NCBI RefSeq assembly: GCF_965363235.1
Contig: NC_134839.1
Span: forward strand, 61,967,560 to 62,031,559
DNA: 64,000 nucleotides
From: Mytilus galloprovincialis
Lineage: Eukaryota; Mollusca; Bivalvia; Mytilida; Mytilidae
Direction of reading: 5' to 3'
The notes beneath the pieces were generated by a model. It worked only from the letters and a program-made list of their open reading frames with translations. It searched no databases and was not told where the DNA came from. Below are positions 1 to 34,358 of the stretch, in pieces. Position numbers and translations under genes: made by a program. Numbering within the stretch: the first letter of the stretch is position 1; the number at the start of each line of letters is the position of its first letter.

Positions 1-199
1 AATCAGTCAGGATAATAAAATATGTAACTTGTTTTTGTCAATTATATTGAACAATATGCCCTATGAACATGATGAATTGCCCATAAGGTGATATACAGTT
101 AATCTACTATAAAAGAATCTGGGACGATTCATCTTTTAATAATTTGAACAAATATGTCCTAGCCTTTATGTTACTTTTTTTCTCGTAAATTCAATTACA

Positions 200-3100
200 A
201 TGGATTTTATACAATTTTTAGGTAGAGCAGAGAAAATGGAATCTATTTTGATGGAGTTTCAGGATTTGAATACCAAGTTAGAAATACATCCGGGTTTAAT
301 ACGCCTAAATCTGAACATAATGAACGCTCTTGATATGCATGTGATTCAAGAGGCAAAGCAAAATATTGAAAAACTGTTAATTAAAGAACATCCGATTGTC
401 GAAAACGTTCAGAAAAATATCATTGCTATACTCAAGACTAAAATACCGAGAGAACGACGAGAAGCCAGATTTGATCTTGAAAATATAAGAATGAAGTCTC
501 CAGACAATTTAAACGTACTAGCCGATTTGGAGTGCATTTATACAGAGCTAGATAGGAGTAAGGAAGCAGAGGTTTGCAAACAAAAATATCAACAAATTCT
601 TTCTGGTACCTCCAAGAACAACATACGTTGCAAGCAATTATGTTTGCTTGAACAAGGGTATGCAATTTTGATAGAGCGAACACTGATCAACCAAAGTACA
701 GTGGAATTAAGGATAACTGATTTACACAAAATTCTTAGCACTGAACTTGAAAGAAGTCAGGGACGAAGAAAAGAGTGTTTTGAAAGAGGACTCCATCACC
801 AAATCCAAGTCTTACGTAATGTCCGAATTGCGAATGAAGACGAGATAGCAGACAGACATCTAGTTCGAAAAGGATCTAGTCTTCAAAAATTTAAATTAGC
901 TGAGTCATTAGATGCATCTTTTCCAAATAAAATATGGAATTACTACTATGCTAAGGCATTAAACCAGTATTATGACTCTTTGGAAACTGTACTTAAACGT
1001 ACAGATCATGGGAAAGATACAATAAACAAACGACAAATATTTGAAGATGACTTAACAAAAGAAATGAAAAAGGTAACATTAAAAGCAATTGAAAACTTTT
1101 GGATGATATCTCAAATTCAAATTAACAATTCCATAATTAGAACATTTGTTGCAAGGTCTTATGCCTACATCGGGCACATTCTTATGAAACGTGGTGATAT
1201 GGTTCATTCTTCTGGAAACTCGTTTAACTTAAATACAAATAAAAGCTTTAAACGTTATACAAATAATCCAGTTGAGGCTGCAGAAATGGCTTATAGGCTT
1301 AAAAAGAATGATATGACTGTTTTGACGAGATATGGAAGGACTCTGTGGAATAAATCAAAGAGTTTTGATGACATAAAAGAAAAATTAGTATTACTTCACA
1401 TGGCAAATGATATTCTAACATGTTCAATCGATGTGGAAAACACCGGAAATTGGTTTGCCTTCTCGACTAGAATGCATGTAAGGAAACAAATATCCGACAT
1501 CAGAGCGAAAAGACATATTGAGTTAGCTAGGAAATATCTGTTGGATGCGTTACAAGATGGAGAAGCAATTTTCAAATCACAAAATACACAAAAAGATTTA
1601 ACTATCCTTGCAGAAATTTGCCAGAAACTCGCAAAGTTTCCGCACACCCATAAGTATGGGCACAATTTTGTTCACACAGAAGGTCTTTTACATCAAGCTT
1701 TAGACTATTTGTTATATGCGTCGTATTTAGGAGATCGACCAGATTTTCACTTTGCCAACAGAAAGGCATCATGTCTCTTCGATCTCGGTGAATACGCTCA
1801 TGCCATTGAATGGGCGAATAAAGCTTGGTTGCTGTGTTCACCTTCAACTCAGATGTCGTTTTACATACTATGTAGTTATATGGTGACTATGTTTGAAGAT
1901 GATTTGCAGATACCCTTTGATCAGTTCGTAAAAGAATTTTTGTACGCTCTAATATATGGTAAAAGAAAATACCAGGATATAGTTAAGAGCATAGAAAAAC
2001 TGTATAAGAATAACAAAAAAGGACTCTTGGTATTAATAAAAGCAATTATCGTAGAACCGAAAACAACACTTAGAACGACAGAAAAGAATATTCTTAGCGA
2101 ATGCATAAATATTTGGACAAATATTGCAGAAACGGGAGATTTAGAAGAGTTTTCAAAATTAGAAACCATTTTAAAAGATATGATACCACGACAAGAAAAT
2201 GAGTATGTACTCTCAGAAACATTTCATCAAACATCGTGTATACCTCCAGTTAAGGTTATAAAGGCATGCTCCAGAGAGTTTGAGTATGATTTTTTCATAT
2301 CTCATAGTCATAAAGACGAAGACTGGGTGACTAAAAGTCTACTCAGAAATCTAGAGAGCCAATTTGATGAACAAGATGTAGCGTTTAAAGGTAATGTACA
2401 ATGATGGCAAGTATTTTATTTCCAGGAGAATAAAGTATAACATTTCATTTTTTATTCTTTTCTTCCTTGTAGATATTTAAACAATAATAAACTGAGTCAT
2501 TTCATTTAACGAACTTTTATTAATATGGTAAAAATAAATAAGTAAGTGAAAACCAATGAATAAAATGATATATAACGTATTAAAATTGATATATATTTAT
2601 ACATAAGTACATTTCTTATTACAAATACCGTCTAGGAGTTTTAGGCTTGCATTGTTACAGAAAGCTATGAGTTATGTAGCATGGTGTGATAATTGCTATC
2701 CCATCAGACTCAACAAAAATGTACGACTTATGTGAGAGCTATCACTGGACATTTACTAGTCGAGAGAAGCTAAATGTAACTGTTGACTATGTATTTGATG
2801 GTGTATGGTACCGCTGGTGGTGTATATAACCAGGTCGGGATCTACTGACCAATATAAACGTGGAATTCAAGCATTTTAATAAATATAGATAAAAACAAAA
2901 ATAATACAAAACAAATTAAAAATATAAATAAAGTAAAACATATATTTTTGATTTTTTCTTTAATATTAATTGCAAAAACAATATATATATTTTGATACAC
3001 TTTTTCTTATGTAAAAAAATAAATATTAGTAATTTTTGATTTTAGTTTATTATGCTTAAGAGTGTTTTAAGGATTTTATTCCAGGCATAGATGACCTTAG

Positions 3101-4869
3101 CCGTATTTGGCACAACTTTTTGGAATTTTAGATCCTCAATGCTCTTCGACTTTGTACGTGTTTGTCTTTATAAATATTTTGATATGAGCGTCACTGATGA
3201 GTCTTATGTAGACGAAACGCGCGTCTGGCGTACTTAATTATAATCCTGGTACCTTTGATAACTATTTACTTCAAATCTTAATCATTTTAATATAATGACT
3301 GACCTAATAATTTTAAGGACAATTCTATTGTCTTATGCAGAATGCGGAAACTGATATAGTAGTACATTGATGTTATGGTAACGTGCCTTTTTTTGTCAAC
3401 GCAATCATGGGAATGACTAAATATAGTAACGGTTAGAAAGTATTGTTTAATATTGTATAAATATATGTCCTAAATATTATAGATACTTTGATAGTCATAA
3501 AACTTGCATTTTGTTTTTTAACGATTCCGAAGTTTTTCAACGGAAAATTTATCGTCTTTTGGTCATCATTGTTTGTGCTTTATGTGTCCCTGATATAGGC
3601 TAATCCAAAAAAAAAGCTTCGAACGCATTACATTTAAACAGTGTTAATTTCATTTGTTTTCATAAATATTGAGCTAATGATACACTCAGGGACTTATATA
3701 ACAGTCAACTAGATAATGAAAGTAACAGCAACTCCTGCATATGCATAAGTTTGTTTTCAGAAGATGTATAACATCCAAAATTAAATTATTTTTCATTAGT
3801 TAGAACTTAAATTCATACAAGTACAACTTAAACATTTCAGACTTGAAAACAAAAAATCAGCAATTACTATTTACAATATAACTAATCAAGGGAATACGGT
3901 TACAAAAGTCACTAGCCAGGAGGACAAACAAAAAACATTTGATTGTTTTTTATAAATGAACAAAGATTCTTTGGGACTGATTTTCGTGTACACCACAAAA
4001 GTTCGAAGAATTAGACTGAATAATGACGAGTGATAAAAGATGAGGTTTTTACGTTCTTTTAAAAAAAAAATACATACAAGTATAAATATAGTAGATATTC
4101 ATATGCACATTGCAATTGTTATATTGGCGGGAAAAAGTTTCCCTTTTGTTACGTTTTGCTTCTTCCTGTTTTAAGGCTTTACTTGATAAAGTTTGTAAAA
4201 GAACGTCTAACCACTTTTTAACTACTGTTCGTTTTCAAAGTGAATGTATGTAATTTCTTTGAGAAAAATTTTACTCTACTAGTAAGTGTTGAAACTAGGT
4301 ATCACCGAAATAAATTTAGCTACAATCTTTGGATAGAAAAGTTACTTAGAATTTAAATAAATGAAACCAAATTTTGGTAATAAATCAAGATCTTCATGGA
4401 TATCAGAAATAAATTAAAATGTACAGTATATTTGTGTAATTACATAAGCGCTTGAAGTCTCAGTATGACTGAAAATTGACATTAAGAAACTCTTCTCGTA
4501 TCAGAGTTCGTATTATTTACATGATGTCACTTTTTCATTGCAGGTTGCATTGCCGACAGAGATTTCATACCTGGTACTTCTATACTGGATAATATCATCG
4601 GTGCTATCAAGAAAAGTAACAAAGTTCTCCTTATTCTAACGGATCACTTTGTGTCTAGTAATTGGTGTCAGTACGAGGCAGATCGAGCCGTAATTAAATC
4701 ATTAAATCTAGATTCGAAAGACAGTAATTGCGTTATACCAATTGTTTTAGAAGAGTGTACTATACCAGAGAAAATTGACCATCTAAACTTCATAGATATG
4801 ACAATAAAAAGGGATTTCGTGCAGGAAATGATGAGATTAAAGAAAGTTTTGTTGCCAGAGGATAAATGA
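200..4869 (+). CDS. TTC22-like TPR protein with C-terminal TIR domain, paralogue 1 (2 coding exons)
   Basis: Exons 200-2390 and 4544-4869 are joined across a GTAATG donor and a TTGCAG acceptor in phase 1, giving 838 aa. Residues up to about 690 are helical and TPR-like. The pieces KIPRERREAR, LADLECIYTELDR, LEQGYAILIE and NWFAFSTRM match the layout I know from TTC22. A TIR domain follows (about 695-838): box 1 YDFFISHSHKD, BB loop RDFIPG (736-741) and SSNWCQYE, with Glu775 at the position of the catalytic Glu of SARM1-type TIR NADases. There is no signal peptide or membrane segment, so it should be cytosolic. A role in immune or cell-death signalling is inferred from the family. Start: ATG 200 has a good context, but a pyrimidine-rich tract ending in AG at 220-221 could be a splice acceptor, which would make ATG 236 the start and leave a 5' exon outside the window. 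Its closest relative lies 7.6 kb downstream on the same strand. Confidence 0.9.
3068..3268 (+). repeat. Hammerhead-bearing dispersed repeat (retrozyme-like), copy 1, 5' truncated
   Basis: It starts near GGATTTTATTCCAGG and ends near CCTGGTACCTTTGATAAC. It matches the last 200 bases of the units at 10049-10390 and 32506-32910. The ribozyme lies at 3188-3231. The copy sits in the intron of TIR gene 1 in the sense direction. Confidence 0.85.
3188..3231 (+). ncRNA. Type I hammerhead ribozyme, complete core
   Basis: The core CTGATGA is at 3194-3200. Stem II is GTCT/AGAC (3201-3204 with 3210-3213) around loop TATGT. GAAA is at 3214-3217. Then comes the minimal stem III segment CGCGCGTC, with predicted cleavage after C3225. 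Stem I pairs GCGTCA (3188-3193) with TGGCGT (3226-3231), including two G-U wobbles. All the invariant hammerhead positions are present. The short GAAACGCGCGTC form is the one known from schistosome satellites and animal retrozymes. Activity is inferred, not shown. Confidence 0.85.
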
Positions 4870-10048: not shown

Positions 10049-10390
10049 ACTGGGTCGATGCCACCGGGTCGATGCAACTATATAGCTACTGTATACTGTA
10101 TCACCAGCCCAGTAGTCAGCACTTGTGTGTTGACATGAATATCAATTATATGGTCATTCAATAAATTTCCTGTTGTCAAAACTGTAAATTTTTCGAAAAA
10201 CTAACTATTTTCTTATCCCAGGAAAAGATAACCTTAGCCGTATTTGACACAACCTTTTGGAATTTTGGGCCCTTAATGCTCTTAAACTTTTTACTTGTTT
10301 GGCTTTATAACTATTTTGATCTGAACGTCACTGGTGAGTGTTATGTAGACGAAACGCGCGTCTGGTGTATTAAATTATAATCCTGGTACG
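10049..10390 (+). repeat. Hammerhead-bearing repeat (retrozyme-like), copy 2, near full unit
   Basis: It begins ACTGGGTCGATGCCAC, has the shared middle CACCAGCCCAGTAGTCAGCA and GACATGAATATCAATTATAT, and ends AATTATAATCCTGGTAC. Compared with the 32.5-kb copy, the segment around 10070-10105 is diverged. It contains a decayed hammerhead at 10325-10368. Confidence 0.85.
10325..10368 (+). ncRNA. Hammerhead ribozyme, mutated core
   Basis: The core reads CTGGTGA (10331-10337) instead of CTGATGA, and stem II has a mismatch (GTGT against AGAC). GAAA (10351-10354), the stem III segment and the cleavage site (after C10362) are kept. Stem I still pairs (ACGTCA with TGGTGT). The core change should abolish or strongly reduce cleavage. 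Confidence 0.75.
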
Positions 10391-12379: not shown

Positions 12380-12467
12380 TTTTAGGAGAATAATAAAAAG
12401 ATGAAATAGAACAGGCTGTCCACTTCCATATCTTCTTAAAAAGCTTATCAGATACTAGTACTCAAAT

Positions 12468-15400
12468 ATGACTGAGGAAGTTAAGCAACCGACAAACAAT
12501 CAATCAAATATGATTGAAGAGCAAATTACGCCGGGATTGATAGGACTGAACTTAAATATTATGCATGCCTTAGATATGCATATGATTGAAGATGCAAAGC
12601 ATAATATCTACAAATTGATTAAAAATGAACATTCTGTTCTAATCAATGTTCACAAAAACATGGTTGCATTATTCAAAATGAAAATACCAAGAGAAAGACG
12701 GGAGGCAAGACTTGAGTTAGAACAAATATTGGAAAAGTTCCCCGATCATCTTAATGCTTTGGCAGATTTAGAGCACATCTATAGAGAATTGCATAGATTT
12801 ACAGACGCCGAGTATTGTCGTAAAACAATTGAACACAATCTAGATGGCAAAAATCGGAATTCCCTACAAAATAAGAGAATATGTTTGCTTGAGCAAGGGT
12901 ATGCAATATTGATTGAGCGAACGTTGATCAATGAAAGCACAGTTGAACTGAGAATTACAGACTTGCATGAGATGCTTAATACTGAGTACGAAAGAAGCGA
13001 AGGTAACAGGAGAGAATGTTTAGAGCGCAGTCTTCATCATCAAATGCAAGTTTTGCGCAATGTACAAAACGCAAATGAAGATGAGAAGGTAGATGGTCAT
13101 TTACTCCGAAAGGGTTCTAGTCTTCAAAAATTTGACTTGGCGGAGAAACTTTCCGCCAAACCCTTTCCCCACATAGTTTGGGTTTTTTACTTTGCAAAAG
13201 CATTAAATCAATATTATGACTCTTTAGAAAATATTTCTAAATTAAAAGATGGTATGGAAGACGAAATGATAGCAGTGACATTAAAGGCAATTAAAAAATT
13301 TTGGTATATAACACAAGAACCTTTCAGGGTAGACATGAAAACCTTTGTAGCAAGATCTTATGCATATATAGGACATATATTAATGAAACGAAAGAGGCTC
13401 ATTAATTCAAATTCAACTATTCCTGAATTGCTGGAAATTCCTGAACTCAAGAAGCTATTGAACGATCCTTTAAAAGCCTCCAAAAAAGCTTATGAACTTA
13501 TGCCCAACGATGTGTCAGTACTAAATAGATTTGGGAGAGCACTATGGAATTGCGTCGACCAAACATTGAGCACGAAAACGAAACTTCAGCAACTTTATCA
13601 ATCTGAAAAAATTCTTTCAGCCTCTATCTCCAAAGATGGACAGAGAAACTGGTTTGCCTATTCTTCTAGGATGGTTGTGAGAAAAGATATTGCTAACTTG
13701 GAAAGAAATGATAAAATTGCCGAAGAATACTTACAGAAAGCAAAATCAGATGGACATATATGCTTCAAATCAAAAACCACAAGAAAAGATATGACTATTT
13801 TGGCTGAAGTATGTCAGAAATTAGCAAAGTTTCCTGATATCGGTTCAAACCAATGCGGTCCAGAATTCGTACGCGATGCCAATTATTTGTACCAATCGTT
13901 AGACTACTTGTTTTATTCTACATACTTAGGTGATCCTCCAGAATATCACTGGACACATAGAACAGCCTCCTGTCTCTTTGATCTTGGCGAGTATGAACAA
14001 GCTATTGAATGGCAGAGAAAAGCCTGGTTTCTCTCCAAAACCTCTACCTCATATGCGTTTTATATGTTGTGCATTTATATGCTGACTATATTTTGGCAAA
14101 ACAAGATGTGGCAGAAAGGTGATAATTCAATTTTTAGAGAATTTTTATACATTTTGATATACGGCAAAACCAAATATAAGGATATAACAAAAAATCTAAA
14201 GGGATTATACCAATTTAAACGAAAAGAAATCCTTCGATTTTTTAAAGAAGCTTTGAAACTAAAGCCGATGAGGGTAGACGAGAAAAATATACTAGAAGTA
14301 TGTTTGGGTGATTTTATTACTTTTTCAGAGAATCATAGAGATCTCTGTCTAGAATTTAGACAGCTTATGGCTAAGCTTCAAGACATTATTCCTGAAAAAG
14401 AGGTCGAGTATGTATTGTCAGAAATATTTAAGAATCCCTCTATAAAGCCACTGGCGAGAGGATTGAAAGCCTTCTCAAAGTCATTCAGATATGATTTTTT
14501 CGTATCACATAGCCATTTGGATGGTAGCTGGGTAGACAAGACTTTTCTCCGACATTTAGAGAGCAAGTTTGACGAGAGCGACGTTGCTTTTAGAGGTAAT
14601 TTCTTATTATTTTAATTTGAATAGAAACAGTTAAACTGTTTTACCAATTCAAACATTTGATTTCTCCATCACAATGATGTTGTTTACTTGCCAACTCAAT
14701 ATCCGCGCCGGGGATGGGATCTTTGAAAGAATTATTATGCATCTCTTATACAAATCACAAATGTTTCAGTCTATTGAATAACAAAATATGGAATATGTTG
14801 TAGAATTACCAATGAGACAACTTTTCACAACAGACCAAATGACACAAAAGTTAACTACTATATGTCACCGTACACACATGAGCAAAGTACAGATCTGAGA
14901 GATACCGCAGTTAATGACAGCTAGTTCAAAGCTAATAGCAACTAATAAAAAGACTACATCTAAGACTAAAATGTCAATCAATACACATACAACATCCAAT
15001 GGATTTAATGTTTTAAAAGACGTTTTAAACAGTCAGAGAAAAACATATTGTGCAATTTCAAGATATAGGTATCGACAGATGGAAGAGCCATGAATGTGCA
15101 TAAGTATATCTCAATAATATATAGTTTAATTTACTGATAAAAAAATCAATAGTAATACTTATAAAAACAATATTCAAATATCTAATCTAATCTATTGAAT
15201 TGGAATAAGTTTATTTAACGGGTCGCTAAGTTTGCTCGGTTGATTATAAGTTTCCGGGCTTGGATAGATAAGTATACATTGCTTTTGGCCTGTTTGAAAT
15301 GTTTTACTCTAGTCATTGTGTGGTCATTTATAGCTGTATGTTGTGAGCCAATGCTTCGTGTTGAAGGCCGTACTTTGACTTTTTATATTTGTTAACTGTT

Positions 15401-15927
15401 ATCACTGGACTTGGATGGAGAGTTGTCTCATTGGAACTCATACGGCATCTTTCTTATTCATATTGAATGTTATTTCAACTCCTTTGAATACCACTTTGGT
15501 TCTAATTGTTAGCCCATTCAACTATATATATCGTTTGTAATTCCAATGTTAACATAATATGTAGTGTGTGTATTATATTTACTAAAACTGTCTTTTATGA
15601 ATTTCAGGTTGTATTGCTGATAGGGATTTCACACCTGGCATTTCTGTCCTAGACAATATTTTAGCGGCCATTGGTGAAAGTAATAAGGTGATTCTCGTGA
15701 TATCAGAAAGTTTTGTGTCAAGTAACTGGTGTCAGTATGAAGCAGATCAAGCAGTCATTCGATCTCTGAAATCTAAAGACGACAACTGCGTTATTCCTGT
15801 TTTGTTAGAAGATTGTGATATACCAGATAAAATTGCTCATTTGAATTATGTAAATTTATCAAACGACACTGATTTTAAACGAGAATTTAGACGATTGAAA
15901 TTGGCCCTAATGCAAGACGACAAGTAG
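12468..15927 (+). CDS. TTC22-like TPR protein with C-terminal TIR domain, paralogue 2 (2 coding exons)
   Basis: Exons 12468-14595 and 15608-15927 are joined in phase 1 (donor GTAATT, acceptor TTTCAG), giving 815 aa. The N-terminal TPR-rich region contains KIPRERREARLELEQIL, LADLEHIYRELHRF, LEQGYAILIERTLINES and SYAYIGHILMKR, which are shared with paralogue 1 and laid out like TTC22. The TIR domain (about 673-815) has YDFFVSHSHLD, BB loop RDFTPG and SSNWCQYE, with Glu754 at the SARM1 catalytic position. The protein is cytosolic by prediction. Homology to paralogue 1 begins at PGLIGLNLNIM, so the first 20 residues are specific. The start is the first ATG after a TTTTAG acceptor at 12380-12385. 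The stop is followed by an AT-rich 3' UTR. An immune or cell-death adaptor or enzyme role is inferred. Confidence 0.92.
14785..14905 (+). repeat. R1 repeat copy in the TIR gene 2 intron
   Basis: ACCAATGAGACAACTTTTCAC, then AACTACTATATGTCACCGTAC and ATGAGCAAAG match R1. It lies in the 1012-bp intron 14596-15607. Confidence 0.65.
15328..15456 (-). repeat. R1 repeat copy, reverse orientation, in the TIR gene 2 intron
   Basis: The reverse complement reads CCAATGAGACAACTCTCCAT and GTACGGCCTTCAACACGAAG. Together with the forward copy at 14785 it makes an inverted pair inside one short intron. Confidence 0.7.

Positions 15928-21847: not shown

Positions 21848-34358
<12,511 letters not shown>

Follow-up and report, generated by a model that had tools for sequence, protein, structure and literature searches.

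A type I hammerhead ribozyme in a TIR gene intron of Mytilus galloprovincialis lies in a truncated copy of an abundant, retrozyme-like repeat with a common 3' end

The window considered here is the whole stretch of DNA that was analyzed, 64,000 nucleotides from the 1.38 Gb genome of M. galloprovincialis (G000:C2:61967560-62031559). Near its start is a TIR gene with the following parts:

143-2390, forward strand: open frame that includes coding exon 1 of the TIR gene (read stop to stop from 143, with the donor GT at 2391)
2391-4543, forward strand: phase-1 GT-AG intron of 2,153 nt that interrupts the TIR domain (splice sites from sequence)
4544-4869, forward strand: second coding exon, encoding most of the TIR domain (Pfam TIR_2 at 51 bits and TIR at 47.4 bits, both above cut-off)

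For the first exon, in which the start of the TIR domain was placed by eye, the sole Pfam hit is a weak one to TPR_1 (16.9 bits, below cut-off). The gene (143-4869) and its neighbor at 12459-15927 are adjacent paralogues, each having an extended N-terminal region with weak TPR matches and an intron-interrupted TIR domain, and the intron of the neighbor occupies the same position in that domain. A hammerhead ribozyme starts 797 nt into the intron of the first gene, in sense orientation. The preliminary description had placed this ribozyme on the sense strand of an intron in a TIR gene, and both the Pfam matches of exon 2 and the splice sites read from the sequence agree with that placement. In the matching intron of the paralogue, a repeat search gives no significant match; of the two introns compared, only that of the first gene contains the repeat described below.

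The ribozyme can be divided into the parts expected of its class:

3188-3231, forward strand: type I hammerhead ribozyme, predicted cut at 3225/3226 (RF00163 fit, motif pattern, genome count, core check)
3188-3193 / 3226-3231, forward strand: stem I, six pairs, two of them G-U (sequence reading, RF00163 alignment, pair check)
3194-3200, forward strand: core CTGATGA (sequence reading, core check)
3201-3204 / 3210-3213 (span 3201-3213), forward strand: stem II, four pairs and a 5-nt loop (sequence reading, pair check)
3214-3216, forward strand: core GAA (sequence reading, core check)
3217-3224, forward strand: stem III ACGCGCGT, palindromic, two pairs (A3217-T3224 and C3218-G3223) around GCGC (sequence, Rfam alignment)
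3225, forward strand: C17 (sequence reading)

The three stems surround CUGANGA, GAA and C17, and stem I is open, the arrangement that defines type I. The core, the six stem I pairs and the four stem II pairs are located where they were originally proposed. A minimal stem III is also present as proposed, but the GAAACGCGCGTC reading of it gives way to a better one, two pairs with a GCGC tetraloop; this form of helix III is known from invertebrate hammerheads (PMC7229834). The covariance model RF00163 (Rfam Hammerhead_1), suggested earlier as a check on the fold, does not reject it: model positions 1-45 of 45 are aligned, with a score of 33.0 bits and an E value of 1.5e-6 in 401 bases searched. 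This is 1 bit short of the gathering score of 34 bits, which is why a curated-threshold Rfam scan of the whole window lists no hammerhead. Genome-wide, 29 of the 37 RF00163 matches listed reach the gathering score, and the best among those listed has 42.4 bits. A pattern search for CTGATGA-N4..26-GAAACGCG gives a single hit in the window, and 100 shuffles give none. By its anatomy, 3188-3231 is a real type I hammerhead despite its score of 1 bit under the threshold.

The ribozyme is part of a repeat, of which the window contains three copies. In what follows, phase 1 is the base after the ribozyme cut.

3068-3269, forward strand: 5'-truncated retrozyme copy, phase 195 to 44, with the canonical 3' end (phase 41) at 3266 (unit alignment)
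3226-3266, forward strand: 41-nt tail from the cut to the 3' end common to copies (alignments, tail counts)
10098-10389, forward strand: second copy, between two TIR genes, with a broken core (CTGGTGA) (alignment, core check)
32507-32911, forward strand: third copy, 405 nt, phase 342 to 41 (alignment, core check)

The intronic copy, 3068-3269, is 202 nt long, is 94% identical to a unit from one of the arrays, represents ~56% of that unit and has a single ribozyme. The third copy consists of the 3' part of one ribozyme, an approximately full unit, a second and decayed ribozyme, and then the tail. It is located in sense between two exon-like stretches resembling uridine phosphorylase; these have weak matches (E values of 0.13 and 0.0022, both below cut-off) to successive portions of Pfam PNP_UDP_1.

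The repeat is dispersed, as had been claimed: the exact 44-mer of the ribozyme is found 6,680 times in the 1.38 Gb genome, 3,148 times on one strand and 3,532 times on the other, and the pattern read backwards is found 0 times. The unit is ~355 bp long with one type I hammerhead, and copies occur both singly and in head-to-tail arrays. In 18 stretches of at least 700 nt, 39 of 44 cut-to-cut intervals measure 351-368 bp, the remainder being 174, 308, 312, 312 and 588. A unit of ~350-390 bp with one type I hammerhead and the presence of thousands of copies, single and tandem (6,680 exact ribozymes and 11,083 exact tails), are both expected of a mussel non-LTR retrozyme, and both are found here; no LTR, primer-binding site or polypurine tract stands out in the 355-bp unit. 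Of 20 copies selected solely through the 3' tail, seven have an intact core. Given 6,680 identical ribozymes in the genome, an intact ribozyme in some intron is to be expected. The preliminary description was right about the relationship to retrozymes, but gave too much weight to the intactness of the intronic ribozyme.

Units within an array resemble one another more than they resemble units elsewhere. After removal of duplicates by position, mean unit identity is 0.956 within arrays versus 0.929 between arrays, and 26 of 39 units, with one tie, are nearest to their own array (15 arrays with at least two units). There are exceptions: the units of L074 resemble units elsewhere more closely than one another, and in L007 no unit of the three has its nearest relative in the same array. 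One array (L002/L003, G000:C4:30850216-30853732) mixes 355-bp and 312-bp units, and it may be that a shortened unit was amplified together with full ones. Long satellite-like arrays with ~357-bp spacing are located at G000:C1:28984477-28989161, 29329469-29333433 and 29639662-29642559; the first two look like duplicates of one another, judged by spacing.

The ends of the copies were mapped by aligning a natural unit, taken as a circle, to 88 loci and the three window stretches. Blocks were dropped if they scored below 120, came within 40 nt of the end of a locus or repeated flanks already represented; locus L001, which repeats the window copy, was dropped as well. The 87 blocks retained include a few low-identity pieces. 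Many of the loci sampled (L009-L038 and L069-L168) come from contig C1. In 66 of the 87 blocks, the 3' end falls at phase 36-49, and the commonest position is phase 41, i.e. ~41 nt past the cleavage site. These 66 blocks are between 89 and 1,441 nt in length, and the 3' end is therefore common to single and tandem copies. Loci found through the tail show the same pattern: 15 of 20 stop within a few bases of the common 3' end and five continue into the unit, as judged by eye. Only isolated loci among the first 100 entries of the list of 11,083 places went into this set of 20, a choice that leans it toward single copies. In the whole genome, the exact 23-mer at phase 16-38 occurs 11,083 times and, with three more bases to phase 41, 7,519 times; extension by 11 nt downstream to phase 49 leaves 2,347 occurrences, and extension by 11 nt upstream leaves 5,516, though mutation influences all of these counts, so that they do not measure the exact fraction of copies ending there. 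A tail borrowed from another abundant element was considered and rejected: the retrozyme is present upstream in 19 of the 20 tail-picked loci, the other stopping at the tail, and no partner element was therefore found. In two places, copies seem to adjoin at this end. At L107 (G000:C1:14901046-14901337), one copy reaches the common 3' end and a second begins ~4 nt on, inside the ribozyme, as if one insertion had occurred directly behind another. At L167 (G000:C1:4535406-4535593), an inverted-tail word comes immediately past the common 3' end, as would be seen if two copies met tail to tail.

The 5' ends, by contrast with this fixed 3' end, are variable and spread, with no sharp start. They were studied in 60 loci chosen among the first 100 entries of a list of 4,156 places; sites already sampled, or having a neighbor one unit upstream, were excluded. 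Three of the 60 (two segmental duplicates and one join) did not enter the hazard count, and no 5' end is in view for 21 of the other 57. The frequency of 5' ends inside the ribozyme corresponds to a hazard ratio of 1.88 (one-sided p 0.059), which is only suggestive of an excess. Target-site duplications are mentioned for retrozymes "when present" (PMC7229834). In a constrained search, five of 66 copies score at least 7, against 0.59 expected from re-paired flanks, and an unconstrained search gives no excess (5.09 vs 4.93). The best candidate at 3068-3269 is 4 nt long, and overall duplications at the copies are only weakly supported. A fixed 3' end combined with variable 5' truncation, as expected of LINE-like target-primed insertion, is what the copies display.

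This combination favors reverse transcription from a fixed site, perhaps on circular RNA. It has been proposed that a primed circle is copied to tandem cDNA by an enzyme from LINEs or, preferably, from Penelope-like elements (PMC7229834); a fixed start site is what the present data would add to that proposal. Tentatively, and with slightly more doubt than confidence, we suggest that insertion occurs by reverse transcription starting at a single fixed position, 41 nt downstream from the cut, the cut being equivalent to the ligation junction of the circle. Synthesis would cover anything from part of a turn to several turns around the circular RNA, and a single step could thereby yield both single truncated copies, among them that of the TIR intron, and tandem arrays. 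We infer that circular RNA is the template and that new copies are begun at the fixed 3' site. Judged from the sequences, there is a moderate case that the arrays represent several turns of one circle. Local duplication would likewise increase identity within arrays, but it leaves the common end of single copies unexplained. No statement of a common 3' end was found in the available portions of PMC7229834 and PMC7761336, and literature searches, which mostly covered papers outside subscription, returned no title on the subject. If the model is correct, the fixed start is a mark of the element whose enzyme starts there. Metazoan retrozymes are described as having no conserved motif from which the mobilizing autonomous retrotransposon could be deduced (PMC7761336), and a fixed start of reverse transcription would supply such a handle, one to look for in the 3' termini of autonomous mussel elements. 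Ribozymes like this one are already known; the useful part of the finding is the common 3' end.

The copies might instead have spread in the manner of ordinary SINEs, from a pol III promoter, and not via circles. Words resembling an A box and a B box match at 13 of 16 positions, eight of 66 copies cluster at 397-428 nt, and it has been remarked that metazoan retrozymes could count as a novel SINE family (PMC7761336). However, the pol III boxes of a tRNA-type SINE are not found above chance, since 28 of 400 block-shuffled units score as well, and ARAGORN detects no tRNA in the array locus L026. Together with the spread of the 5' ends, these results give no support to pol III initiation at the A box next to the cut, and that reading was rejected. 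The 3' junctions examined have no consistent poly(A) or poly(T), and retrozymes are described as lacking promoters (PMC7761336). Spread as ordinary SINEs is thus improbable.

For the intronic copy, other explanations concern what the ribozyme does. It could have been retained to tune expression or splicing of the TIR gene by cutting the intron, as has been proposed for amniote intronic hammerheads; its sense orientation, its intact core and its position 797 nt into the intron would suit this role, and conserved intronic hammerheads provide a precedent (PMC6155905). Such a role is very unlikely for a sequence with 6,680 identical genomic copies, particularly as the matching intron of the paralogue lacks a significant repeat match and the ribozyme in the other sense copy between exon-like stretches, 32507-32911, has decayed. 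Action in trans, in which retrozyme RNAs or circles would dock via the palindromic stem III in the manner of a double hammerhead and cut the TIR transcript, seems just as remote. Weak helix III prevents many type I motifs from cleaving as monomers, but not as dimers (PMC7761336), and retrozyme circular RNAs are abundant in mussel tissues, as seen on northern blots (PMC7229834). Two 44-mers cofold in the double-hammerhead pattern at -29.5 kcal/mol, versus 2 x -9.2 kcal/mol for the separate molecules, but 121 of 500 shuffles gain as much, as does the reverse complement, and dimer folding was rejected as a special property of this sequence. A cloned mussel repeat, moreover, cleaves in vitro, with a kobs of ~0.1 per min (PMC7229834). 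A more substantial possibility, though still a doubtful one, is that 3188-3231 is dead in its context, misfolded by intron RNA and pure debris; this differs from the explanation preferred below solely in the activity of the copy. Energy folding of the 44-mer gives -5.7 kcal/mol for the ribozyme fold versus -9.2 kcal/mol for the best fold, a comparison with no active-hammerhead reference. The stem I pairs have probabilities of at most 0.03 with flanks and 0.0 with 200 or 401 nt of context. Energy folding omits tertiary contacts, metal ions and co-transcriptional folding, however, and these low values thus ignore what could stabilize the ribozyme.

The best explanation, and a highly probable one, is that 3068-3269 is a 5'-truncated genomic copy of the abundant mussel-type non-LTR retrozyme that sits in the TIR intron most likely as a passive passenger. 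It builds on features observed directly, namely the anatomy of the ribozyme, the family as defined by repeat structure, the copy number, the truncation and the common 3' end. With thousands of copies inserted by chance, a location in a TIR intron is to be expected. One ribozyme makes one cut, and a monomer or circle requires two. With one ribozyme and ~56% of the unit, this copy is unable alone to release or circularize a small RNA, contrary to what had been suggested for it. In arrays, the ribozymes would divide a multimeric transcript into monomers, which could then be closed into circles by a tRNA ligase, as published for M. galloprovincialis. The lone ribozyme of 3068-3269, if active, could cut the intron of some nascent TIR transcripts at most once, and slowly. 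Slow cleavage of part of the nascent introns by 3188-3231 is possible, an effect on the TIR gene is unlikely, and the gene probably goes without regulation by this copy.

Type I hammerheads in short repeats or introns are known from several other animals. The SMalpha SINE-like elements of Schistosoma mansoni have one in a short repeat, 335 bp for the copy named in the source, and stem III is extremely short in related schistosome candidates, as here; the host is different, and the likeness is one of description only (PMC8490949). Salamander and axolotl retrozymes and newt satellite repeats also contain type I hammerheads, in repeats of 330-350 bp, and these are weak as single motifs and much better as dimers (PMC7229834). 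The amniote RECK and CTCL hammerheads resemble 3188-3231 in being type I ribozymes in introns and have been suggested to derive from retroelements; they are conserved single loci, however, whereas 3188-3231 is one of thousands of repeat copies (PMC6155905). The closest counterpart is the non-LTR retrozyme of M. galloprovincialis, for which ~5000 type I hammerheads in 350-390 bp repeats have been reported (Cervera and de la Pena 2020, PMC7229834). In that system, the monomer from construct DRtz_Mg353 is circularized by RtcB, most of the usual loop contacts are absent from the ribozymes, and cleavage is slower than that of a coral ribozyme (PMC7229834). Shared with the repeat described here are the type I hammerhead, the 350-390 bp repeats, the thousands of copies, the low GC content, the tandem copies and the two-pair helix III with its tetraloop. 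The copy at 3068-3269 differs in being truncated, with one ribozyme, and the 3' end at phase 41 is a feature additional to the accessible part of the published account. On the basis of size, ribozyme type and copy number, membership in the published M. galloprovincialis retrozyme family is strongly indicated.
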